Source of the DNA: Candidatus Eisenbacteria bacterium
GTDB taxonomy: Bacteria > Orphanbacterota > Orphanbacteria > Orphanbacterales > Orphanbacteraceae
Assembly: GCA_016930695.1 (NCBI GenBank)
Contig: JAFGGD010000058.1
Span: 1-64,000, forward strand
DNA length: 64,000 nucleotides
Reading direction: 5' to 3'
Of the stretch, positions 5,714 to 30,611 are shown piece by piece; position 1 is the stretch's first letter; each line of letters begins with the position of its first letter. The position numbers and the translations under genes are program-made. A model generated the notes under the pieces. The model was not told where the DNA came from and searched no databases. It saw only the letters and a list, made by a program, of their open reading frames with translations.

Positions 5714-5761
5714 GCGGGGGGGAGGATGTCCCGGGAGGGTGGCTCCCGGGGGGAACGGATT

Positions 5762-8700
5762 ATGACCGATCGAAAGAGCGGAGAGCGGCCGGCCCGCGAG
5801 CCGAGCGCCCTCGAGATCAATCTAAGGCGGACCGCCTCCCGGGTGGTGATTCCGGAGACCCAAAAGGTGCTCCTCGACGCCACGCGGGAGAGCGTGGGGG
5901 TCCATGAAAAGACACGGCTCCTTCTGGAGGAGTTCAACCACCCCTTTGTGAACTGGAGCCACGTTCTGACCGAACTCCGTTCCTACGCGGTCGGCAATTT
6001 CTACTTCCACAACGCCTACGAGAGGGGCGACGAGGCGATCCGCGTTCTCGTGGAGATTTTCTTCTCCGTGGGCGAACAGTGCGTCACGCCCGATCTCCGG
6101 ATCGAAACGTACCGGGCCCTCCTTCGCTATCTGGAAAAAGTGGTGGAGGGATCGAACGGCCGTCTCGAGCGAAACCGGCCCGTCCTGGAGGCGACCTTCC
6201 GCGGGCTGCTCGATCGTTTCCACGCGATACCCGGTCTCGCGGGCGTGCTGAGCGGCAGCGTGCGCCGCGTGTTGCGGGCCGCCGGGGAAAACGATCCCGG
6301 ATGGGCGCGCCCCCTTCTCCTGGACCTGATGAAAACGGCGTTGGGCGAAACCTACCGGATCTGGCTCGAACTTCCCGATCCGGCGGATTGGGTCGACTCG
6401 GGGGCGCCGGACACGCTCCCCTCCCTGGGGCGCATCCGCCATGATGCGATCCGCGGATACCAAGAGCGCCTGAACACAATCGCCGCGGACGCCTTCGACG
6501 AGATGGTGCTGGACACCGGTTCGCTCCCCGATCAGGCGGTGATGGAGAACCTCTACCTCCATGCCGCCGATGAGATCGAGAGTCACTTCGAGGGCTGGTC
6601 CGGCTATACCAACAAGGTTCTCTTTCTGCTGAAGATCCTCGACTCCGAGCTGCTCCGACAGATACGGGATCCGGCGCTCCGGGCGATCAACCGGGCCCTC
6701 TCGCGCGCCCTCCGGATGGAGGAGCGCCCACACGCCGCCGGCTTCATCGACGCAGTGTTCGACAGTTTCGGGCGGGGCTGGCTGCTGCATGACACGACGG
6801 TGCTCGACTGCATCCACACCATCGCCGTGGACGTCCTCCGCTCCGAGGACGACCGCCTGATCCAGAAGGTGATCGACCGGATCCTCGATCACGGCTTCGA
6901 GACTCCCGAGCTTCAGGGCGTGAACGAACTCTGGCAGTTCGAGGTGAATCCGGCGCACGCGAAAAACATCCGACTCTGGCTGGAGCTGATCTCCCTGAAC
7001 CCCGGCCGCATGAAGCGCCTCCTGTCGGCCCTGATTTTCCATCTGCGGATGGGAGGGGTGTTCATCAGCGACACGGACCTTTTCCAGAAGGACGTCGCCG
7101 GTCTTCTGAACGCGGACATCCGCCCCGTTTACAACCTGGTCAAGCAGCTCGGCAAGTTCTTCCCGATTTACTTCCGCGAAATCGGGGCCGAGGGGGAGCT
7201 GCGCCGCGTCTCCACCCGGGTGGACGAGATCGGACTCCGCCGGGACTCGGTGATTCATTTCCTCCGCAAGCAATGCCACGTGGAGAGTTCGAGCCGCCTG
7301 ATCCCCTTCGCCGTGGAGGTGCTTCGCTACTGGTCCACCGGCGACGCCGAACCGCTGCGCGCCCATCTGCCCGAAGAGATTTTTCCGCGCCTGGCCGACG
7401 AGAAGGAGCACCTCGAGTACATGCGGCCCGTGATCGCACGGGTGGTCGAGCGGGTCGAGAGCTTCCCGTCCGGCTTGCTCGACCGGAAGCCGGAGGAGAT
7501 CCGGGAGTGGGTCGAGGCGGGCCCGGAGCCGACCGAGGGGGCTCGGGAAAAGGCGATCCAGATGATCCGGGTCTACCAGCTGCTGGACCGGAAATACAAC
7601 ATCGGACCCCGCGGGGCGCTGGATGGGCTGGAGGGTTCCTCCCTCGTCGAAGGGGAGGCGGTGCGCCGCCTGGCCGCCGCGATGGAGGAGGACCGGCCCC
7701 TCGATGCGGTCGCGGAGCTGGTGGACATCCTGGAGAGGTTGAAGGAGATCATCCTCGATCCGGAGCCGGCGGAGTCCCGCGAGGACATCTATCGGAAACG
7801 ACACATCGCCGCCGGCATCCCCTCCATGTACGGCCGATTCTTGAACCGGAAGGTGGAGGCGCTCGGTATCTCCTATCGTCTCGAGAAGCTGGCGGAGGTC
7901 CTCTTCGAGAGGTTGATCGAGGATGAGAATCTGCGTTACCTCACCAAACGCGGCATCGCGCGCGTGACGCAGTGGCTCGTCCTTCTGCGCCGTTCCCTCT
8001 GGGTGGACGGGATCTCCTCGCGCGGCCTCGGGTCGCGAATCGACATGCTCGAGCGCGGCCTGGATCTGGGGAATCTCACCATCGATCAGTTCATCAACAT
8101 CTTTCAGTTCACCTCCCGCACCATCCGGGAGATCACCCGCTACACCATCGCCTCGCTCAATGAATCGGACCTGGAGCGGCTCGCGCCTCTTTACGTCGAG
8201 GGGGGCCCGCCGAAGGCGGACCGGGGCAGGGTTCACATGAAGATCGAGGCTTTTCTCAGGGACCAGATCAGTTCCTGTTTCGCGCTGCAACCGTTGGACA
8301 ACCTGGTCTCCCGAGTGCTCAGCACCCTCACCTTCGAGTCGGAGGCGTTCGGCAAGTCCACGCGCAACCTGCTCATGAGCTACGACATCGACAAGTGTTT
8401 CGTGCCGATCCATACGGACGACAAGGCGTCGGGCGATCCGATCCTCCTCGGCTTCAAGGGTTCCTTCCTGCGCCGGATGGCCGGCTTCGGTTATCCCGTG
8501 CCGGCCGGTTTCATCGTAACCACCGAGGTGTATCGCACCTACGAGGCGCTCAGCGCGTTCAAGGACCTGCGCGCCCACACGCTGTCGGTGCTCCGAAACC
8601 GGCTCCGGGAGATCGAACGCCGAACCGGCCGGACCTTCGGCGACCCGCAGAATCCTCTCCTCCTCTCGGTGCGGAGCGGCGCCGCGGTCTCCATGCCGGG

Positions 8701-9922
8701 AATGATGGACACCTTTCTCGACGTGGGGATCAATCAGTCGATCGCCGAGGGCCTCGCGAGCGATCCCCGGTTCGCCTGGGCGGCCTGGGACAGCTACCGC
8801 CGCTTTCTGCAGAGTTGGGGTCTCAGCTACGGCGTCCCCCAAGAAATCTTCGACAGGATTTTCGAGGATTACAAGAACCGCTGGTCGGTGCAGAAGAAGG
8901 CGTCCTTTACGGCGGAACAGATCCGGGAGGTCGCCCTCGCCTGCCGTCGCGCCATCAGCGACCACGACGTGGAGATCGTGGACGAGCCCTTCCGGCAGCT
9001 CCGGCATTGCATCGAACGGGTTCTCTTTTCCTGGGACTCGGAGCGGGCGCGTCACTACCGGAAAGAGATGAAGATCGCCGACGACTGGGGGACGGCGGTG
9101 GTGGTGCAGGCGATGGTCTACGGCAACCTGGACGAACAGTCCGGCACGGGCGTTCTCTTCACGCAGAACCCGCGGCGCAAGAGCGGCGGCGTTTCCCTGT
9201 ACGGCGATTTCGTGCTCCGCAGCCAGGGAGAGGACGTGGTGCGCGGCCTCGTGGAGACGTATCCGCTTACCGAGGAGCAGCGGCAGACGCAGAAACGCGC
9301 CGATATCTCCCTCGAATCGGAGTTCCCGGAGGTGTACAGGGAATTGCTCCGGATCGCCGAGGATCTGGTGGTGGTTCGCGGTTTCAACCACCAGGAACTG
9401 GAGTTCACTTTCGAGAAGGACGACGCGTCCTCGCTCTACATCCTTCAGGCGCGGGATATCGTCACGCCGGAGGAGAGCGAGATACCGACCTTCGTCTCCA
9501 CGCCGGAACTGGACGAGAAATACATCACCAGCGGGATCGGCGTCGGCGGCGGCGCCCTCTCCGGACGGGTCGCCCACAACGAGAGGGACATCCGCGAACT
9601 CTGGGAGAAGGACCCGGACGGCACGATCATCCTGGTTCGCCCGAACACGGTGCCGGAGGACATTCACATGATCTTCCGGGCCGACGGGCTCCTGACTTCC
9701 CGGGGCGGGGCGACCTCCCACGCCGCCGTGGCCGCTCAGAGCATCGGCCGCACCTGCGTGGTCGGCTGCCGGGCCCTCCACGTGGACGAGCGCGCCGGAA
9801 GGACGGTCATCGGCGACAAGGTGATCCGGAGCGGCGACTTCATCAGCATCAACGGCTACAACGGGGCGGTTTATCTCGGCGAGCACGAGATCAAGCCGGT
9901 CGTCCGCTTCGACAACCTCTGA
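5762..9922 (+). CDS. Giant PPDK-like dikinase: PEP/pyruvate-binding and phosphohistidine domains
   Basis: A 1386-residue cytoplasmic protein. The first ~880 residues are helical and match nothing I recognise. Residues of about 890-1215 form the ATP-grasp nucleotide domain of pyruvate phosphate dikinase, with KGSFLRRMAGFGYPVPAGF and SVRSGAAVSMPGMMDT. The C-terminus (about 1260-1386) is the swivelling phosphohistidine domain, with TSRGGATSHAA and catalytic His1320. The PEP/pyruvate TIM barrel that ends true PPDK is missing, so the final phosphate acceptor is unknown; rifampin phosphotransferase and glucan dikinases show that such modules can serve other substrates. The start at 5762 has GGGGGGA upstream; a longer frame begins at 5726 but with GGAGG touching the ATG. 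GAPDH lies 157 bases downstream, so a central-carbon role is possible but unproven. Confidence 0.85.
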   Translation: MTDRKSGERPAREPSALEINLRRTASRVVIPETQKVLLDATRESVGVHEKTRLLLEEFNHPFVNWSHVLTELRSYAVGNFYFHNAYERGDEAIRVLVEIFFSVGEQCVTPDLRIETYRALLRYLEKVVEGSNGRLERNRPVLEATFRGLLDRFHAIPGLAGVLSGSVRRVLRAAGENDPGWARPLLLDLMKTALGETYRIWLELPDPADWVDSGAPDTLPSLGRIRHDAIRGYQERLNTIAADAFDEMVLDTGSLPDQAVMENLYLHAADEIESHFEGWSGYTNKVLFLLKILDSELLRQIRDPALRAINRALSRALRMEERPHAAGFIDAVFDSFGRGWLLHDTTVLDCIHTIAVDVLRSEDDRLIQKVIDRILDHGFETPELQGVNELWQFEVNPAHAKNIRLWLELISLNPGRMKRLLSALIFHLRMGGVFISDTDLFQKDVAGLLNADIRPVYNLVKQLGKFFPIYFREIGAEGELRRVSTRVDEIGLRRDSVIHFLRKQCHVESSSRLIPFAVEVLRYWSTGDAEPLRAHLPEEIFPRLADEKEHLEYMRPVIARVVERVESFPSGLLDRKPEEIREWVEAGPEPTEGAREKAIQMIRVYQLLDRKYNIGPRGALDGLEGSSLVEGEAVRRLAAAMEEDRPLDAVAELVDILERLKEIILDPEPAESREDIYRKRHIAAGIPSMYGRFLNRKVEALGISYRLEKLAEVLFERLIEDENLRYLTKRGIARVTQWLVLLRRSLWVDGISSRGLGSRIDMLERGLDLGNLTIDQFINIFQFTSRTIREITRYTIASLNESDLERLAPLYVEGGPPKADRGRVHMKIEAFLRDQISSCFALQPLDNLVSRVLSTLTFESEAFGKSTRNLLMSYDIDKCFVPIHTDDKASGDPILLGFKGSFLRRMAGFGYPVPAGFIVTTEVYRTYEALSAFKDLRAHTLSVLRNRLREIERRTGRTFGDPQNPLLLSVRSGAAVSMPGMMDTFLDVGINQSIAEGLASDPRFAWAAWDSYRRFLQSWGLSYGVPQEIFDRIFEDYKNRWSVQKKASFTAEQIREVALACRRAISDHDVEIVDEPFRQLRHCIERVLFSWDSERARHYRKEMKIADDWGTAVVVQAMVYGNLDEQSGTGVLFTQNPRRKSGGVSLYGDFVLRSQGEDVVRGLVETYPLTEEQRQTQKRADISLESEFPEVYRELLRIAEDLVVVRGFNHQELEFTFEKDDASSLYILQARDIVTPEESEIPTFVSTPELDEKYITSGIGVGGGALSGRVAHNERDIRELWEKDPDGTIILVRPNTVPEDIHMIFRADGLLTSRGGATSHAAVAAQSIGRTCVVGCRALHVDERAGRTVIGDKVIRSGDFISINGYNGAVYLGEHEIKPVVRFDNL

Positions 9923-10079
9923 TTTCATCCCGGGAAGTCATCCGCTCCCGGTCCGAAAATCCTCGCAATCGGTTCGACCGCCGATTTACAATCCCACCGG
10001 AAATCCGTTGAACAGCGAAGGCTTCACGTTCCGATACGCACGGGGGGCGCGCCGCGTCCCGCGGGAGGAGGCGATTCGG

Positions 10080-11333
10080 GTGGAAGGACCGAAAATCCTG
10101 GGAATCAACTCGTTGGGTCGCATCGGCAAGTTGACGCTCTGGCACCACGCGGGGCGCCGGTACTTCGACAAGATCGTGGTCAACCAGGGGAGGGATGTAG
10201 GAAAAGACCTGGAGGCGTTCTGCCAGACGATCGAGAAGGACTCGACATACGGACGGGTCCATCATTTCCTGAACGGGTGCTCCGCGGAGCCCTGCGTGCG
10301 GATCGAGGACCGGGAAAAGGACCTCCTCACGGTGAACGGGGTTCCGGTGCAGGTCCTTCGGAGGGAAAGGAATCCCAAGGAGATCCCCTGGCGGGAGCAC
10401 GGGGCGCGGATCGTGGTGGATTGTACCGGGCAGTTCAGCGATCCGACTCGGCCGGAGGAGCACGGGAAGGGGTCGCTCCGGGGGCACCTGGTCGGCGGCG
10501 CCGAGAAGGTGATGAACAGCGCCGACTTCAAACCGAAGGAACGGGGAACGAAGATGCCGGAGGACGCGGTGGTTCTGATCTTCGGCGTGAACCACGAGGA
10601 GTACGACCCGGCGCGGCACAATCTGGTGTCGGCCGCCTCCTGCACCACCACCGCCCTGGCGCACATGATGAAAACGGTGATCGACGCCTTCTCCATCGAC
10701 ACGATCCTGACGGCGAGCATGTCGACGATTCACGCCGCGACGAACACGCAGAGCGTTTTGGATAACGTGCCCAAGACGGGCGCCAAGGACCTGCGCAAGA
10801 GCCGGAGCATTCTGAACAACATCATCCTCACCTCCACCAACGCGGCGGCGGCGCTGGAGAAGGTGATCCCGGTGATCCGCGAGATCGGGTTCATGGCGGA
10901 CTCGGTGCGGATCCCGACGAGCACCGCTTCGCTGATCATCCTGAACCTGACCTTCCGGTCGCGCCTGGACGAAAACGGCGAGCCGGAACTGAATCGGGCG
11001 AAGCTGCTCGATCTGTACGAGAAAGCGGCGGAGCGCCAGCAGAAGGGGCTCCTGAAGGTCTCGCACGAGCAGAACGTGAGCACCGACATGATCGGCGAGA
11101 ACGCGGCGGTGGTGATCGAGGGATTCGAGACGCACACGAGGACCGGTTTCGTCTTTATCGACCTGGAGGGGCTGCCGGGGATGACGCCGGAGCTTCTCGC
11201 GCGTTTCCCGGAGAAGGTGGTCCGCCAGCCGGTCACGCACGCCAAGATCTTCGGCTGGTACGACAATGAGTACGGGAGCTACACCAATCGTCTGGGCGAC
11301 CTGACGGTGTATGTGGCGGACCGGATGGATTAG
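10080..11333 (+). CDS. gap: Glyceraldehyde-3-phosphate dehydrogenase
   Basis: About 417 residues. Converts glyceraldehyde-3-phosphate, NAD(P)+ and phosphate to 1,3-bisphosphoglycerate in glycolysis and gluconeogenesis. Visible family marks are the Rossmann start ILGINSLGRIGKL, the catalytic Cys188 in ASCTTTALAHM, and the C-terminal WYDNEYGSYTNR. It is longer than the usual ~335 residues, with extra sequence between the first strand and the catalytic domain, as in the long GAPDH forms of some bacteria. The open frame extends to a TTG at 10008, but GTG at 10080 has GGGAGGAGG eight bases upstream and begins just before the Rossmann fold, so it is chosen. Confidence 0.93.
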   Translation: MEGPKILGINSLGRIGKLTLWHHAGRRYFDKIVVNQGRDVGKDLEAFCQTIEKDSTYGRVHHFLNGCSAEPCVRIEDREKDLLTVNGVPVQVLRRERNPKEIPWREHGARIVVDCTGQFSDPTRPEEHGKGSLRGHLVGGAEKVMNSADFKPKERGTKMPEDAVVLIFGVNHEEYDPARHNLVSAASCTTTALAHMMKTVIDAFSIDTILTASMSTIHAATNTQSVLDNVPKTGAKDLRKSRSILNNIILTSTNAAAALEKVIPVIREIGFMADSVRIPTSTASLIILNLTFRSRLDENGEPELNRAKLLDLYEKAAERQQKGLLKVSHEQNVSTDMIGENAAVVIEGFETHTRTGFVFIDLEGLPGMTPELLARFPEKVVRQPVTHAKIFGWYDNEYGSYTNRLGDLTVYVADRMD

Positions 11334-11640: not shown

Positions 11641-12777
11641 TCACCACCCGAGCAGGGCGGGATCGAGGGCGACGGTGACCTCCCAGTGCTCCCGGTCTTC
11701 GTAGTCGTAGTAACGGGGGAAGGAAGCCCAATCGACGCGGACGTCGACCGGGAGAAGCCCCTCCACGCCGAAACCGAAACCGTGGGACTGCTTGATGCCG
11801 AGCCCTTCTCGATCGGTCACGCGGCCCGCACGGGCGGAGAAGAACCCCAGCATACGGATCTCAACAGCGGCGTGATGGATCACGTCTTTGTCGCCGACGA
11901 TCGATTTGTCGTACTCATAGGCGAGAAGGACGTCGGAACGGAGCAGCCGCCGCGGGTTCCAGACGCCCTCCAGAAGACCCGGATGGTAGCCGAAGCGAAT
12001 TCCCGCCCCGGCGTGGAACTGCCGGGGGAGATCCTCCTCGGCGCAGTCATCGCAGTACTGTACTTTTTGGCCGATGTGAAGGAAGGAAACGCCGATCACC
12101 GGGTTGAAGAGAAGGCCGCCGCCGTCCGCGAAGCGGCGGAAGCCGCCCTCATTCTCGTCGAGGTAGTACTTCGGAGAGATCGCCGCGCCGAAGCTGAGGG
12201 AGTGAACCGAAGCGGTCAAGCCCTCGATTCCCAGTTCCGGGATGGAAGGCAAAAGCTTGGAATCGGTGAACTCGTAGGCGATCCCCGCCCCCGCCCAATC
12301 CTTCCAGCAGACCGCCGCCGCCAGGTTGTAGAGGCGGTCGCGGGAGTGGTATTCCCTTATCAATTGCCCATGGGAATTGATCACATCGGAGTTTCCCAAA
12401 TCCAGATACGTATGTCCCGCGCCGGCGACGAAGCGTAAATCACCGAAACCGAGGCGCGGGCCGTGCACGGCGAAGGTGCGGAGTGTAATGCCGGGGTCGT
12501 TGAAATACTCGGGAAGCCCTTCGGTGAGATCCACGTAGGTCCAGTTCAGGCGGACGGCGGGATCGAAGCCGAGCATCCCCGGGTTCCACCAGAGCGCGGT
12601 CGTCCCTTCCTCCAAAATCGTCGTCATACCGCCCATGCCGGAGGAGCGGGCCGAGCCGATCATCAGCTGCTCCCGGCTCATGGGGGTGCCGTTGTTCCTC
12701 GCGGGGGAGGATTGCGGGAAAAGAAGAGAGAGAAGGAACAGGGACGCCAGGGCAAGAGGGAAAGACCGTCGATCCAC
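11641..12777 (-). CDS. Outer-membrane beta-barrel protein, PorV/PorQ-like
   Basis: A 378-residue exported protein. A signal peptide spans about residues 1-26. The mature part opens with a SARSSGMGGMTT...WNPGML stretch, the hallmark start of PorV/PorQ and FadL-like barrels, and continues with alternating amphipathic strands to a C-terminal Trp. PorV-type proteins act in type IX secretion or as lipid-type porins, and the FlgD-like tails on two other proteins here would fit a secretion role, but no direct link is visible. The start is GTG at 12777 with AAAGGGAG upstream. It follows the selenoprotein gene by 70 bases on the same strand and may share its transcript. Confidence 0.7.
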   Translation of the reverse strand: MDRRSFPLALASLFLLSLLFPQSSPARNNGTPMSREQLMIGSARSSGMGGMTTILEEGTTALWWNPGMLGFDPAVRLNWTYVDLTEGLPEYFNDPGITLRTFAVHGPRLGFGDLRFVAGAGHTYLDLGNSDVINSHGQLIREYHSRDRLYNLAAAVCWKDWAGAGIAYEFTDSKLLPSIPELGIEGLTASVHSLSFGAAISPKYYLDENEGGFRRFADGGGLLFNPVIGVSFLHIGQKVQYCDDCAEEDLPRQFHAGAGIRFGYHPGLLEGVWNPRRLLRSDVLLAYEYDKSIVGDKDVIHHAAVEIRMLGFFSARAGRVTDREGLGIKQSHGFGFGVEGLLPVDVRVDWASFPRYYDYEDREHWEVTVALDPALLGW

Positions 12778-12847
12778 GATAAACTCCCTTTCCTCGTGGT
12801 GGATCGGGCCGGGGAGCGGTTCCGCGGGGCGGAGCGCTCCGTCTCCC

Positions 12848-13075
12848 TTACCCGATCGCCTTTTTGATTTTGCGGACCACCTCTTCGTCGTCCGGGAAGA
12901 CGCCCGTTTTCGATTTGGCGTAGATCTCCGCGCCGCCGGCGTGGATGTCGAAGATCCCGCCCGCTCCGGCGATCAGCTCCGGCTCGATCCCCGTTTCCTC
13001 GCGGATCCGCGCCGCCAGACCGGCGGCTCGGGGGCTGTAGTTTCAAACGCGGCAGTATTCGATGGTGATTTTCAC
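12848..13075 (-). CDS. SelW/Rdx-family selenoprotein with in-frame UGA (selenocysteine)
   Basis: A 75-residue thioredoxin-like redox protein of the SelT/SelW/SelH (Rdx) group. The frame starts at GTG 13075, six bases after GGAGG, and reads VKITIEYCRV, then TGA at 13045-13043, then NYSPRAAGLAARI, ending at TAA. The UGA falls exactly where the family CxxU/CxxC motif needs its second redox residue (Cys8, Sec11). Downstream, GGIFDIHAGGAEIYAKSK and GVFP match the family's second half. A SECIS-like hairpin follows the UGA, and a SelD gene is present in this window. Conventional ORF calling breaks the gene at the UGA. The physiological partner is unknown; Rdx proteins are thought to act in thiol redox control. 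Confidence 0.88.
13011..13045 (-). promoter_or_regulatory. Bacterial SECIS-like element directing Sec insertion
   Basis: Counting from the UGA at 13045-13043, 15 bases are followed by a perfect six-pair stem GCCGCC/GGCGGC (13027-13022 with 13016-13011) closed by the loop GGUCU. The loop begins 21 bases after the UGA. A short apical loop with G among its first bases about 16-37 nt from the UGA matches the known bacterial SECIS model recognised by SelB. Confidence 0.78.
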
Positions 13076-13214
13076 GAGGCGCCTCCTTTTTCAAAATCCG
13101 AAACCAGTTTACACATTTGCGGTCTCTTTGCCAAGGACATCGGATGGAGATGATCCGGGGCGCGGGAAAACGCCTCTGCGTTCGGTTTCCGGCCGCGGAA
13201 AAGCGCGCGACAGC

Positions 13215-15558: not shown

Positions 15559-18012
15559 ATGGCCGGCGTCGTCCTGCGAAATCTGGTGAAAAGCTACGGT
15601 AAGGGGAAGCCGGTCCTCAAGAACGTGAATCTGGAGATCGGGGACCGGGAGTTCATGGTCCTCGTCGGTCCATCGGGCTGTGGGAAATCGACGGTTCTCC
15701 GGGTGATTTCCGGGCTTGAGGATGTGGACGGGGGAGAGGTGCGGATCGACGATCGCCTGGTGAACGGCGTCCCCCCCAGAGAGAGGGACGTGGCGATGGT
15801 CTTCCAGAACTACGCCCTCTACCCGCACATGACCGTGTACGAGAACATCGCCTTCGGCCTCCGGGTCCGCGGCTTCGGCCGCGACGAGATCGACAAACTC
15901 GTTCGGGAGGCGGCGGAGGTCCTGAACCTGTCGCCCTTCCTGGCGAAGCTCCCCAAGCAGCTCTCCGGCGGCGAGCGCCAACGGGTCGCCCTCGGCCGGG
16001 CGATCGTCCGCAAGCCGAAGGTCTTCCTCTTCGACGAGCCCCTTTCCAACCTGGACGCCAAGCTGCGCGTGCAGATGCGCGCCGAGATCAGCGCGCTCCA
16101 CAGGCGCCTCCGGATCACCACCGTCTACGTGACCCACGACCAGGTGGAGGCGATGACGATGGGGGAGAGGATCACGGTGATTCGCTCCGGCGAGATCCAG
16201 CAGGTTGCGCGCCCCCTCGATCTCTACCGGCAACCGGCGAACCGTTTCGTCGCCGAGTTCATCGGGTCCCCGCCGATGAACATCCTTCCCGTCCTTTGGG
16301 ACGGGGAATCGATGACGGTGGCCGGAGTGAAAATCGATCTTCGCGGGGAGCGTCTCGGCCTGCCGGAGGAACTCCGGGGAAAGGGTGTCCTCCTCGGCGT
16401 GCGACCGGAGAAGGTCGAGGTTTTCGCCGGAGGGGGCGGCGTGCCGGCGCAGATCGATCTGGTGGAGCCGATGGGGGGGGAATCGAACATCTACCTGCGC
16501 GTGGAGGGGAAGCGCGTGATCGCCCGCATCGAGGGGGACACGCCGCTCCGCGCCGGCGAGGAGGCCTCGATCCGGTTCCCCGTTTCGGAGGCGCACTTTT
16601 TCCACGGCGAGACCGGTGTCCGTATCGGCCGCTCCGGCGAAAGCGAGACGATCGCCGCGCCCGCCGCGCCGCCCCCGCCGCCCGAGGAAGAGACGCGCCG
16701 CCGCGCGCCGGCCGCTCCCTCCGAGGGGCCGCCCCGGCGGAAGAGGGTCGCGTTGTGGTGGGCCATCGGCGTCACGGCGGTTCTGGCGGTGCTCCTCGGT
16801 TTCTACTTCGGCGGCCGGAGTGGTGGGGGAAGATCCGCCGCCGGCCCGGGCGAAGCGGTGGAGATCACGATCTGGCAGATGATGGATCCGCCCGAGAAGG
16901 CGCTTTTCGAGGAACTGGTGTACGAGTTCACCCGCGCCCATCCGAACTGGACCATCTCTCAAACCCATTTCGCGCCGGATAACCTCCGCACCCAGTTCCT
17001 CACCTCGGCGCTCGGCGGCGGCGGCCCGGAGATCATCTACGGTCCCTCCGACCAGGTGGGTCCCCTCTCCACGGCGGAGACGATCCTCCCCATCGACGAG
17101 GTTTTCTCCGACGAGTTTCTCGGCCAGTTCATCCCCCTCGCCTTCGACACGTTGAACGGGCACGTCTGGCAGTTGCCGGCCCGGGTCGGGAACCACCTGA
17201 CCCTCCTCTACAACCGGGAGATGCTCGCCGAGCCGCCGGCGACCCTGAGAGATCTGGTTCGCGTCGCCCGGGAGCTGACGATCGACACCAACGGCGACGG
17301 CGCGCCGGATCGCTACGGCCTTGTCTTCAACATCAAAGAGCCCTTCTGGCTCGTCCCCTTTCTCGGCGCGTGGGGGGGATGGGTGATGGACCGGGAATAC
17401 CGTCCCACCCTGGACACGCCCGCCATGGTCGGCGCCCTCCGTTTCCTCCAGGAGATGCGGCGGGGGAAGAAGATCATGCCCGAGGACTGCAACTATGAAG
17501 TCGCCCACACACTCTTCCAGGAGAAGAAGGCGGCGATGCTGATCAACGGCCCCTGGTCCTGGCGCGGCTACGAGGAGGCGGGAGTCGATTTCGGCCTCGC
17601 GCCGATTCCGAAGAACGACGAGACCGGATACTGGCCGTCGCCCATGATCTCCAGCGTCGGTTACAGCGTGAACGCCAACGTGAAACCGGAGAAGCTGGAG
17701 CGGGTGAAGGAACTCCTCGACTATCTCACCTCTCCGGAGGTGCAGATCCGTTACGTCGAGCGGCTCTGGACCATCCCGACCCGGAAGGCGGCGCTGGAGG
17801 ACCCGAAGGTGCAATCCCACCCGAGGGTCGCCGATTCCTGGGAGCAGTACCGCCACGGCCGTCGTATGCCGGTCGTGACGGAGATGCGGGCGATCTGGGA
17901 CGCCATGCGCCCCGCCTATCAGAACGTGTTGAACGGCGAGGCGACGCCGGTGGAGGCGGCGCGGAAGATGCAGTCGGACGCGATCAAGAAGATCAAGGAA
18001 ATGAACGAGTAA
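15559..18012 (+). CDS. Fused ABC sugar importer ATPase and solute-binding protein (MalK-TM-MalE)
   Basis: An 817-residue single chain holding two proteins that are normally separate. Residues 1-~365 are a MalK/MsmX-type ATPase: Walker A GPSGCGKST (about 37-45), signature LSGGERQRVALGRA, Walker B VFLFDEP (155-161), H-loop TYVTHDQ-like near 190, and a C-terminal OB-type regulatory domain. After a Pro/Arg-rich linker a single hydrophobic helix spans about 397-419. Residues of about 434-817 are a family-1 extracellular solute-binding protein. With the ATPase inside, one helix would place the binding domain outside, which is the correct topology for import. The permease genes follow (57 bases to the first). 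There is no frameshift or internal stop, so the fusion is real in this sequence. The sugar is probably maltose-like, by homology. Confidence 0.92.
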   Translation: MAGVVLRNLVKSYGKGKPVLKNVNLEIGDREFMVLVGPSGCGKSTVLRVISGLEDVDGGEVRIDDRLVNGVPPRERDVAMVFQNYALYPHMTVYENIAFGLRVRGFGRDEIDKLVREAAEVLNLSPFLAKLPKQLSGGERQRVALGRAIVRKPKVFLFDEPLSNLDAKLRVQMRAEISALHRRLRITTVYVTHDQVEAMTMGERITVIRSGEIQQVARPLDLYRQPANRFVAEFIGSPPMNILPVLWDGESMTVAGVKIDLRGERLGLPEELRGKGVLLGVRPEKVEVFAGGGGVPAQIDLVEPMGGESNIYLRVEGKRVIARIEGDTPLRAGEEASIRFPVSEAHFFHGETGVRIGRSGESETIAAPAAPPPPPEEETRRRAPAAPSEGPPRRKRVALWWAIGVTAVLAVLLGFYFGGRSGGGRSAAGPGEAVEITIWQMMDPPEKALFEELVYEFTRAHPNWTISQTHFAPDNLRTQFLTSALGGGGPEIIYGPSDQVGPLSTAETILPIDEVFSDEFLGQFIPLAFDTLNGHVWQLPARVGNHLTLLYNREMLAEPPATLRDLVRVARELTIDTNGDGAPDRYGLVFNIKEPFWLVPFLGAWGGWVMDREYRPTLDTPAMVGALRFLQEMRRGKKIMPEDCNYEVAHTLFQEKKAAMLINGPWSWRGYEEAGVDFGLAPIPKNDETGYWPSPMISSVGYSVNANVKPEKLERVKELLDYLTSPEVQIRYVERLWTIPTRKAALEDPKVQSHPRVADSWEQYRHGRRMPVVTEMRAIWDAMRPAYQNVLNGEATPVEAARKMQSDAIKKIKEMNE

Positions 18013-27437: not shown

Positions 27438-28166
27438 TTATCGCCCGATCCGCGTCACGTCCTCCTCGATCGCGTTTCCGTAGAGGTGCGAAAAACCGTA
27501 ACGGCGGGAGTAACTATGTCCCACGCCCCAGTTTTCCGATGGGATCGGCGTTCCGCCGCCGCCGGTCCCGCAGAGCGACGTTTTCGAGGTATCCGTCGCC
27601 CCGGGATCGAAGACGAGGGCGTCTCCGCTGATCCGGTAACGGACCTCGGTGGGACTCGTCTCGTCGGGGAAGAGGTATCCCACATGGGAGCCGCAGCGCC
27701 CGCAGACTACCTCGCTCCACATGCTTCCGAGACGGCTGTTTTGAGCCGAGGGTGTCCCATCGTCGCCGATGCATCGCTCGAAGCTGAGCCAACCGGTTCC
27801 GGAGGTGGACTTCGCGTTGGAATGGAAAAGGGGCTGGCCGCAGCAAACGCAGCGAAAGACCCCCTCGGCATCGTTGTCGTTGTGGTCGCCGGCGCCGTCC
27901 GTGACGTCCTCTCCGAGACGGGTGACGCGATCGATTGCCGGCGTCAACCGGCGTTGACGGGTGGAATCGTCGAGGGAGATCCGGAGCCAGGGGGCGGCGG
28001 GGCCGATCTCTTTGACCGGAAGGGATGAGTCGGCCGGAGAGAAGGTATTCTCCCACGCCGCCGCCGAGCCCCGATCCCGCCCGCCGTCGCTCCAGGCGAT
28101 GATCACCGCAAGCGCGGCGAAGAAGATCCCGATTTCCCACTGCACGGGTTTGTTTCGCATCTTCAT
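27438..28166 (-). CDS. MsrB-like protein lacking the catalytic cysteine
   Basis: A 242-residue protein with an N-terminal membrane anchor (about residues 10-25) and an MsrB-like zinc domain. Both zinc CxxC pairs are kept (CVCC and CGRC), and SGTGWLSFERC replaces SGSGWPSF. At the catalytic position the motif reads VRYRISGDALVF: Arg, encoded by CGG, stands where MsrB has Cys or Sec. The protein should therefore be unable to reduce methionine sulfoxide. The C-terminal ~45 residues are extra relative to MsrB. It lies just upstream of the active msrB on the same strand, so a duplicated and repurposed copy is likely, perhaps as a binding or sensor protein; that role is inference. Confidence 0.8.
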   Translation of the reverse strand: MKMRNKPVQWEIGIFFAALAVIIAWSDGGRDRGSAAAWENTFSPADSSLPVKEIGPAAPWLRISLDDSTRQRRLTPAIDRVTRLGEDVTDGAGDHNDNDAEGVFRCVCCGQPLFHSNAKSTSGTGWLSFERCIGDDGTPSAQNSRLGSMWSEVVCGRCGSHVGYLFPDETSPTEVRYRISGDALVFDPGATDTSKTSLCGTGGGGTPIPSENWGVGHSYSRRYGFSHLYGNAIEEDVTRIGR

Positions 28167-28388: not shown

Positions 28389-30611
28389 TTAGCGCGCGAC
28401 TCGGATCCTTCCCGTCCCCTTTGCGGTGAAGCGGCCGATGAGGGCGGCTTCGCGCACGCCGCGCTTGCGAAGGTCTTCCAGGAGCGCGCCGGCTTTCTTT
28501 TCCGGTAGGGCGATGAGGAGCCCGCCGGAGGTCTGGGCGTCGGCGAGGAGGACGCGCTCTCCCTCGGGGACATCGGCGTCGAAGTCGACGTGGGGGAGGA
28601 CGAATTCCAGGTTGTTTTCCGTCCCGCCGGGGACGACCCCCGCGGCGATCCAACGGAGCGCCTCTTCGAGGCGCGGCACGGCCGAGGCGCGGATCTCCGC
28701 GTCGACGCCGCTCCCGGCGGTCATTTCGTGCAGATGGCCGAGGAGGCCGAAGCCGGTGACGTCGGTGCAGGCGCTCGCACCGATCGCTTCCATCGCCTCC
28801 GCCGCCGCCCGGTTCAACTCCGCCATCAGGTCCGCGATTTTCTCCGCCGTTCCCTCTTCGGCGAGGCCGCGCTTCACCGCCGTGGCGAGCACGCCGACGC
28901 CGATCGGCTTGGTGAGGACGAGCGCGTCGCCGGCACGCGCGCCGTCGTTCCGCACGAGACGGTCCGGATGGACGAAGCCTGTGACGGCGAGCCCGAACTT
29001 CGGTTCCGTGTCGTCCACGGTGTGGCCGCCGGCGATGATCACCCCCGCCTCGCGCGCCTTGTCGAACGCCCCTTCGAGGATCCTCTCCAACACGCGGAGG
29101 GGAAGTCGCCCCGCGGGGAAACCGACCACGTTCAGCGCGAAGACCGGGCGGGCGCCCATGGCGTAGACGTCGCTCAGCGAGTTGGCCGCCGAGGCGGCGC
29201 CGAAGCGGTAGGGATCGTCCACGACGGGCGTGAAGAAATCGACGGTTTGCACGATCGCCAGCTCGTCGGAGACGCGGTAGACCGCTGCGTCGTCCGACTT
29301 GTCGGCGCCGACGAGGAGGTTGGGATCCTCGGGACGCGGAAGGTTGCGGAGCACCTTCTCCAAATCCTGGGGGCGGAGCTTGCAGGCGCAGCCGAGGCCG
29401 TGAGTGTATTGGGTGAGGCGGACGTCGGCGTTCTCGCCGGAAGCGGCGGAGACGGGGGCGCCCTCCCCCTCCGGAAGGAGACGCCTCACCGCCTCGCCGA
29501 TGATCTTCGCCGCGCGGTCCACGTCGTCGTCGGTCGTGCCCCGCCCCGTGGTGAGGCGGACCGTCCCCATCGCCCACTCCACCGGCACCCCCATCGCCTG
29601 CAGCACGGGGGAGATGTCCACCTCCTCGGTATGACACGCCGCCCCCGCCGACGCGGCGACGCGATCGCCGATCTCGGTGAGCAGCGTGTCCGCTTCGACG
29701 CCGCGGAAGGAGAGGCTGAGCGTGTTCGGGAGGCGGTGGACCGGGTGGCCGTTCATGCGGACGTTTTTCTCGCCCACTTCGCGGAGAATCGCCTCGTGCA
29801 GGCGGTCCCGCGCGCGGATCATGGCGCTCATGTGTTCCTCGAGCCGTTCCCCCGCGACGCGGCAGGCGGCGCCGAGGCCGACGATCTCCGGCACGTTCTC
29901 CGTCCCCGGGCGAAGGCCGCGCTCGTGATCGGCGCCGTGAAGGATCTTCTCGATTCGCGCGCCGGAGCGGATGTAGAGCGCGCCCACCCCTTTCGGCGCG
30001 TAGAGCTTGTGCCCCGCCACGGAGAGGAGGTCCACGCCGAGATCGTCCACGCGGACCGGAATCTTCCCCATCGCCTGCGCCGCGTCGGTGTGGACGAGTG
30101 CGCCGCGCTCGTGCGCGATCTCCGCCAGCTCGCGCACCGGCAGGATCGTCCCCACTTCGTTGTTGGCGAGCATGAAGGTGACAAGGATGGTGTCGTCGTC
30201 GATCGCCTCGCGCAGGCGGTCCGGATGGAGGAACCCTCTCTCGTCCACCGCGAGGCGGGTGACGCGGAAGCCGCGCTTCTCCAGCTCGGCGCACACCTCG
30301 GTCACCGCGGGATGCTCGATGGTGGAAGTGATGACGTGACGGCCGCGGTCGCGCCGGGCGAGCGCTCCGCCGAGCAGGGCGAGGTTGTTGCTCTCCGTTC
30401 CGCCGCCCGTGAAGACGATTTCTCCCGGATCCGCGCCGAGAAGCGCCGCCACATCCGCCCGCGCCTGCTCGACCGCCCGCTTGGCGAGCGCGCCGAAGGG
30501 ATGGCCGCTGGAGGGATTCCCGAAATGCTCGCGGATGTAGGGGATCATCGCGTCCGCCGCTTCCGGCGCGATCGGCGTGGTCGCGTTGTAATCGAGGTAG
30601 ATCGGCTTCAT
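28389..30611 (-). CDS. selD: Cysteine desulfurase (NifS-like)-selenophosphate synthetase (SelD) fusion
   Basis: A 740-residue bifunctional protein. Residues 1-~390 are a NifS/IscS-type PLP enzyme: start IYLDYNATTPIAPE, PLP lysine in SVAGHKLYAPKG (about residue 204) and catalytic Cys326 in SAGAACHTEE. From about residue 396 SelD follows, with QYTHGLGCACK giving catalytic Cys408 (E. coli Cys17 equivalent), then DDAAVYRV, TVDFFTPVVDDPY and DVTGFGLLGH. The desulfurase half can release selenium from selenocysteine or cysteine-bound selenide directly to SelD, which makes selenophosphate from ATP. Its presence supports Sec decoding of the UGA gene at 12848-13075. SelA, SelB and tRNA-Sec are not in the window. 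Confidence 0.93.
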   Translation of the reverse strand: MKPIYLDYNATTPIAPEAADAMIPYIREHFGNPSSGHPFGALAKRAVEQARADVAALLGADPGEIVFTGGGTESNNLALLGGALARRDRGRHVITSTIEHPAVTEVCAELEKRGFRVTRLAVDERGFLHPDRLREAIDDDTILVTFMLANNEVGTILPVRELAEIAHERGALVHTDAAQAMGKIPVRVDDLGVDLLSVAGHKLYAPKGVGALYIRSGARIEKILHGADHERGLRPGTENVPEIVGLGAACRVAGERLEEHMSAMIRARDRLHEAILREVGEKNVRMNGHPVHRLPNTLSLSFRGVEADTLLTEIGDRVAASAGAACHTEEVDISPVLQAMGVPVEWAMGTVRLTTGRGTTDDDVDRAAKIIGEAVRRLLPEGEGAPVSAASGENADVRLTQYTHGLGCACKLRPQDLEKVLRNLPRPEDPNLLVGADKSDDAAVYRVSDELAIVQTVDFFTPVVDDPYRFGAASAANSLSDVYAMGARPVFALNVVGFPAGRLPLRVLERILEGAFDKAREAGVIIAGGHTVDDTEPKFGLAVTGFVHPDRLVRNDGARAGDALVLTKPIGVGVLATAVKRGLAEEGTAEKIADLMAELNRAAAEAMEAIGASACTDVTGFGLLGHLHEMTAGSGVDAEIRASAVPRLEEALRWIAAGVVPGGTENNLEFVLPHVDFDADVPEGERVLLADAQTSGGLLIALPEKKAGALLEDLRKRGVREAALIGRFTAKGTGRIRVAR

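Follow-up and report, generated by a model that had tools for sequence, protein, structure and literature searches.

In the window, that is, the whole stretch of 64,000 nucleotides of DNA analysed here, the minus strand between positions 12848 and 13075 harbors a SelW-like (SELENOW-like) gene of the Rdx family that has been overlooked by annotation. The frame opens with a GTG start codon (13075-13073) located 6 nucleotides after a Shine-Dalgarno sequence, GGAGG (13086-13082), runs for 75 codons, closes with TAA (12850-12848) and contains exactly one in-frame TGA, namely, codon 11 (13045-13043), which occupies the second redox position of the C8-x-x-U11 motif; the first redox residue, Cys8 (TGC, 13052..13054), is invariant in the alignment. 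When the TGA is translated as selenocysteine (Sec, U), the product is VKITIEYCRVUNYSPRAAGLAARIREETGIEPELIAGAGGIFDIHAGGAEIYAKSKTGVFPDDEEVVRKIKKAIG. The preliminary description of this locus had reported an intact 75-codon frame with a single TGA at the second position of CxxU and a start preceded by GGAGG, and both points hold for the minus strand, which that description did not specify; translation of the plus strand in the region 12848-13075 yields no SelW frame. The gene upstream of selW ends in a terminator-like hairpin (13247-13218), for which a terminator scan gives weak evidence, and a promoter scan points to a weak, putative promoter-like site, TTGGCA-17-TAAACT, on the minus strand (13134-13106), so selW probably possesses a promoter of its own.

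The membership of the product in the Rdx family, as originally proposed, is substantiated by a profile search of the frame, in which the Pfam Rdx profile (PF10262) matches the entire length of the protein with a score of 58.1 bits (E = 1.1e-15; cut-off 22.6), a level of similarity that rules out a chance origin of the readthrough frame. The SelW/T/H profile TIGR02174 is matched with 47.4 bits (cut-off 34.2), and the top NCBIfam score, 73.2 bits, was obtained with NF041051 (SelTWH_Campy); as the curated threshold of this equivalog is 88 bits, the protein is not assigned to it. An AlphaFold model built from 20 aligned sequences has a pLDDT of 94.6, and its best matches in the PDB are bacterial SelW-related structures (2fa8, 2ojl, 2p0g, 2obk, 2oka and 3dex), with mouse SelW scoring lower. 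The fold is closely similar to those of 2fa8, 2ojl and 2p0g (TM 0.83-0.91), whereas the sequence identity is only about 30%.

The gene is present in all seven genomes of the phylum that were sampled (five genera of one family), with exactly one in-frame TGA in each. Altogether, the TGA is found in the same alignment column in 20 sequences, namely, those from the seven phylum members, from four further genomes and from nine loci of named metagenome-assembled genomes that belong to Krumholzibacteriia, Gemmatimonadota, Desulfobulbaceae, Planctomycetota and others. The protein is conserved on both sides of the TGA, the invariant residues including Cys8, U11, P15, A17, L20, L34, G40, F60 and P61. 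More broadly, Rdx genes were detected in 62 of the 290 sampled genomes, and most of these genes contain the TGA. In comparisons of the seven phylum members, the part of the gene past the TGA has dN values of 0.05-0.38, and dS mostly falls between 0.5 and 1.3; with dN well below dS downstream and the TGA itself conserved, the possibility that selW is a relic frame is ruled out. Relatives with a normal stop and no conservation past the TGA, which had been named as evidence that would count against readthrough, were sought in this comparison, and what was found instead is that the relatives keep both the TGA and the downstream conservation.

The genome (3.78 Mb in 60 contigs, 96% complete) encodes tRNA-Sec, SelA, SelB and SelD, the set of components that constitutes the Sec-decoding trait. 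The tRNA-Sec, with a UCA anticodon, is located on contig C45 and scores 71.6 bits with the covariance model (gathering threshold 47), selA on contig C57 and selB on contig C27 match their profiles with 531 and 368 bits, respectively, and selD is in the window itself (28494-29420; 397 bits), all three profile scores being above the curated cut-offs. Thus, the SelD gene that had been noticed in the window is indeed there, as part of a fusion protein, and the three components whose absence would have spoken against selenocysteine, tRNA-Sec, selA and selB, were searched for across the genome and are all present. The attribution of these genes to the organism represented by the window rests on an assembly of 60 contigs that is 96% complete; an origin of the tRNA-Sec, selA and selB contigs from another organism is unlikely because all seven genomes of the phylum contain the TGA gene.

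Downstream of the TGA, a predicted bacterial SECIS hairpin (13011..13027, minus strand) consists of six GC pairs and one G-U pair that closes a 3-nucleotide GUC loop; when the G-U pair is not counted, the hairpin reads GCCGCC-GGUCU-GGCGGC, with a 5-nucleotide GGUCU loop. The six-pair stem and the GGUCU loop agree with the preliminary description, whereas the spacing of 21 bases given there for the stem applies to the apical loop, the stem itself starting 15 nucleotides after the UGA. The SECIS hairpin of the E. coli fdhF type, likewise located past the UGA, also has a short GC stem capped by the apical loop GGUCU; the sequence of the stem is different. Published rules for bacterial SECIS elements call for a loop of 3-9 nucleotides, a stem of 4-16 base pairs, a G in loop position 1 or 2, a distance of 16-37 nucleotides between the UGA and the loop and a minimum free energy of no more than -7.5 kcal/mol (PMC13188914); the selW hairpin, with a loop of 3 or 5 nucleotides that starts with G, 6-7 base pairs, a distance of 21-22 nucleotides and a minimum free energy of -18.9 kcal/mol, conforms to all of them. 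Considered as a single sequence, this hairpin is unremarkable for a stretch with 65% GC and is not significant alone: its z-score against shuffled sequences is -2.0, and an equally long stem appears in 1458 of 5000 (29%) random synonymous recodings, so we rejected the single-sequence fold as independent evidence.

The significance of the hairpin comes, accordingly, from its conservation across relatives and not from its own fold, and it is this comparison that bears out the SECIS-like interpretation. Codons 17, 19, 20 and 21 (GCC, GGT, CTG and GCG) are identical in all seven phylum members even though GGT and CTG account for only 11% of the glycine codons and 33% of the leucine codons of the window, respectively, and dS over the hairpin codons 16-22 is 0-0.36, i.e. 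there is almost no synonymous change. For 33 distinct Sec-containing sequences, 82.7% of the cells preserve the pairing of the 7-pair helix, compared to 77.5 +/- 1.0% after shuffling and 27-54% in slid versions. The covariation score of 0.208 exceeds those of all 500 shuffles (0.122 +/- 0.015), a control that ignores relatedness, and also those of all slid versions, so that the assignment to the SECIS elements is supported by conservation through covariation. In particular, the pair at columns 21/33 appears as CG, GC, UG, AU and UA, and the pair at 22/32 as GC and UA. Moreover, an invariant G opens the apical loop (35/35), beneath which 33 of the 35 sequences have an A-U or G-U pair. A point against the hairpin is that every other phylum member has one or two disrupted pairs in the stem. 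Twelve Cys-containing Rdx genes that were subject to the same treatment show no such hairpin (39% of the cells pair, and 11 of the 12 are unpaired next to the loop), although the control is an imperfect one, as the majority are members of another subfamily, in which Trp occupies this place.

Frames interrupted in this way usually point to a pseudogene, and the TGA could be a nonsense codon that replaced a Cys (TGC or TGT) or other codon through mutation or sequencing error and left a relic frame behind it; the recurrence of the same TGA in all seven phylum genomes and in many distant ones, the purifying selection past this codon and the Sec machinery in the genome render this extremely improbable. 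Even less credence, to the point of being negligible, can be given to the possibility that the true gene is the overlapping plus-strand open reading frame (12635-13153, 172 aa), with the minus frame as its shadow: that frame is uninterrupted, but long shadow frames are common in DNA with 65% GC, and it is the minus frame that matches Pfam and has conserved relatives.

The meaning of the UGA codon itself could be questioned in two ways. A genome-wide reassignment of UGA, e.g. to Trp, without involvement of Sec would account for a tRNA with a UCA anticodon, but the covariance model identifies this tRNA as tRNA-Sec, the selW TGA sits at a Cys/Sec redox position, and UGA terminates ordinary genes in the window, such as the 1398-aa PPDK-like gene, the relatives of which align to the last codon; we regard the chances of this explanation as minimal, on a par with those of a pseudogene. 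Slightly less remote, and still highly improbable, is a real and conserved gene in which the UGA is read by a near-cognate tRNA, with insertion of Trp or Cys. This scenario draws on the fact that Sec insertion in selW is predicted from the sequence; however, it is at odds with the conserved, covarying SECIS, with its invariant loop G, that is missing in the Cys-containing relatives, and with the complete Sec machinery.

Taken together, the family, the fold, the conserved TGA, the conserved and covarying hairpin and the complete Sec machinery, all of which were computed here, support the original notion of a SelW-like gene read through UGA: the UGA is almost certainly read as selenocysteine and not as stop, and we are highly confident that the gene encodes a selenoprotein of 75 residues in which this codon is decoded via SelB and SECIS. 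Under the proposed mechanism, ribosomes would start at the GTG at 13075, the UGA at codon 11 would be decoded by Sec-tRNA-Sec brought by SelB bound to the predicted hairpin, the loop of which starts about 21 nucleotides past the UGA, and translation would run on to the TAA at 12848. The product is predicted to adopt a thioredoxin/Rdx-like fold, in which the redox loop that links strand 1 to helix 1 of the model bears Cys8 and Sec11, and probably is a thiol/selenol oxidoreductase that would act via a selenenylsulfide. Sec insertion, expression and redox activity are what one would expect of such a gene. Bacterial SELENOW/SelW-like selenoproteins share with this protein the family (PF10262), the size, the position of CxxU, the UGA codon and the SECIS directly after it, and differ in the host alone, which here belongs to a poorly sampled phylum (seven genomes examined) (PMC1088965, PMC1794560, PMC2398784, PMC13188914). 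SelW-like proteins are the most abundant selenoprotein family in the Sargasso Sea and GOS data (PMC1088965, PMC1794560, PMC2398784), and SELENOW-like is a high-confidence predicted family of prokaryotic selenoproteins (PMC13188914). The gene described here is an additional member of a family known since the early studies of prokaryotic selenoproteomes (PMC1088965, PMC1794560); it extends this family and leaves the biological picture unchanged.

Sampling the selenoproteome of this genome family by family, which gives a lower bound on the number of Sec genes, revealed at least three further redox genes with an in-frame TGA, namely, two peroxiredoxins and one thioredoxin-like lipoprotein (TxxU twice and UxxC once). 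Both peroxiredoxin genes (C11:5964-6359 and C29:28741-29127) carry the TGA at the peroxidatic position, in TFVU, and are each followed by a hairpin with a GGUC loop. The lipoprotein gene (C11:2127-2366; locus L094 1281-2510, minus strand), the TGA of which takes the place of the first redox residue in STUGPC, lies about 3.6 kb from the peroxiredoxin gene on the same contig. The genome's matches to formate dehydrogenase alpha and AhpD/CMD contain no Sec codon, nor do the other thioredoxin matches. Given several redox proteins with an in-frame TGA, the Sec trait appears to serve several redox proteins in this genome. The literature on selenoproteins in candidate phyla yielded nothing tied to this lineage; the present analysis records, for a poorly sampled phylum, the Sec-decoding trait and no fewer than four candidate selenoprotein genes, and illustrates how reading of the raw sequence finds selenoprotein genes that are cut or dropped by standard ORF calling.

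The SelD encoded in the window is the C-terminal half of a 740-aa protein (28389..30611, minus strand), the N-terminal half of which is a class-V aminotransferase/NifS-like cysteine desulfurase, and is a Cys form (GLGCACK). The fusion protein would make selenophosphate for the Sec pathway. In four relatives from the phylum, SelD has a TGA at the place of this Cys (AGUAAK, or CGUAAK in one of them), and the NifS-like matches are elsewhere; in this genome, SelD thus seems to have both exchanged Sec for Cys and become fused. NifS-SelD fusions are reported to be rare, with two prokaryotic instances in a 2015 survey, one of them with Sec, Geobacter FRC-32 (PMC4561486, PMC2398784). This protein, the most unusual of the neighbours of selW, is a less ordinary part of the window than selW, yet of a known type. 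Directly downstream of the fusion gene, on the same strand, is a gene with a SelR/MsrB domain (27438-28166), which contains no in-frame TGA.

A PPDK-like gene and a distant GAPDH-like gene adjoin each other on the plus strand (5726-11333), as they do in all seven phylum members, and the GAPDH-like gene, with the PPDK-like gene before it, faces selW in each of the six relatives that were examined; the window differs in that a 378-codon gene (11641-12777) separates the GAPDH-like gene from selW. Conceivably, this neighbourhood could hint that SelW is devoted, as a selenol reductant, to reducing the catalytic Cys of the GAPDH-like dehydrogenase, a conjecture that we consider very unlikely. Elsewhere in the window, a single 817-aa frame (15559-18012, plus strand) encodes a fusion of a MalK-type ABC ATPase with a solute-binding protein domain.
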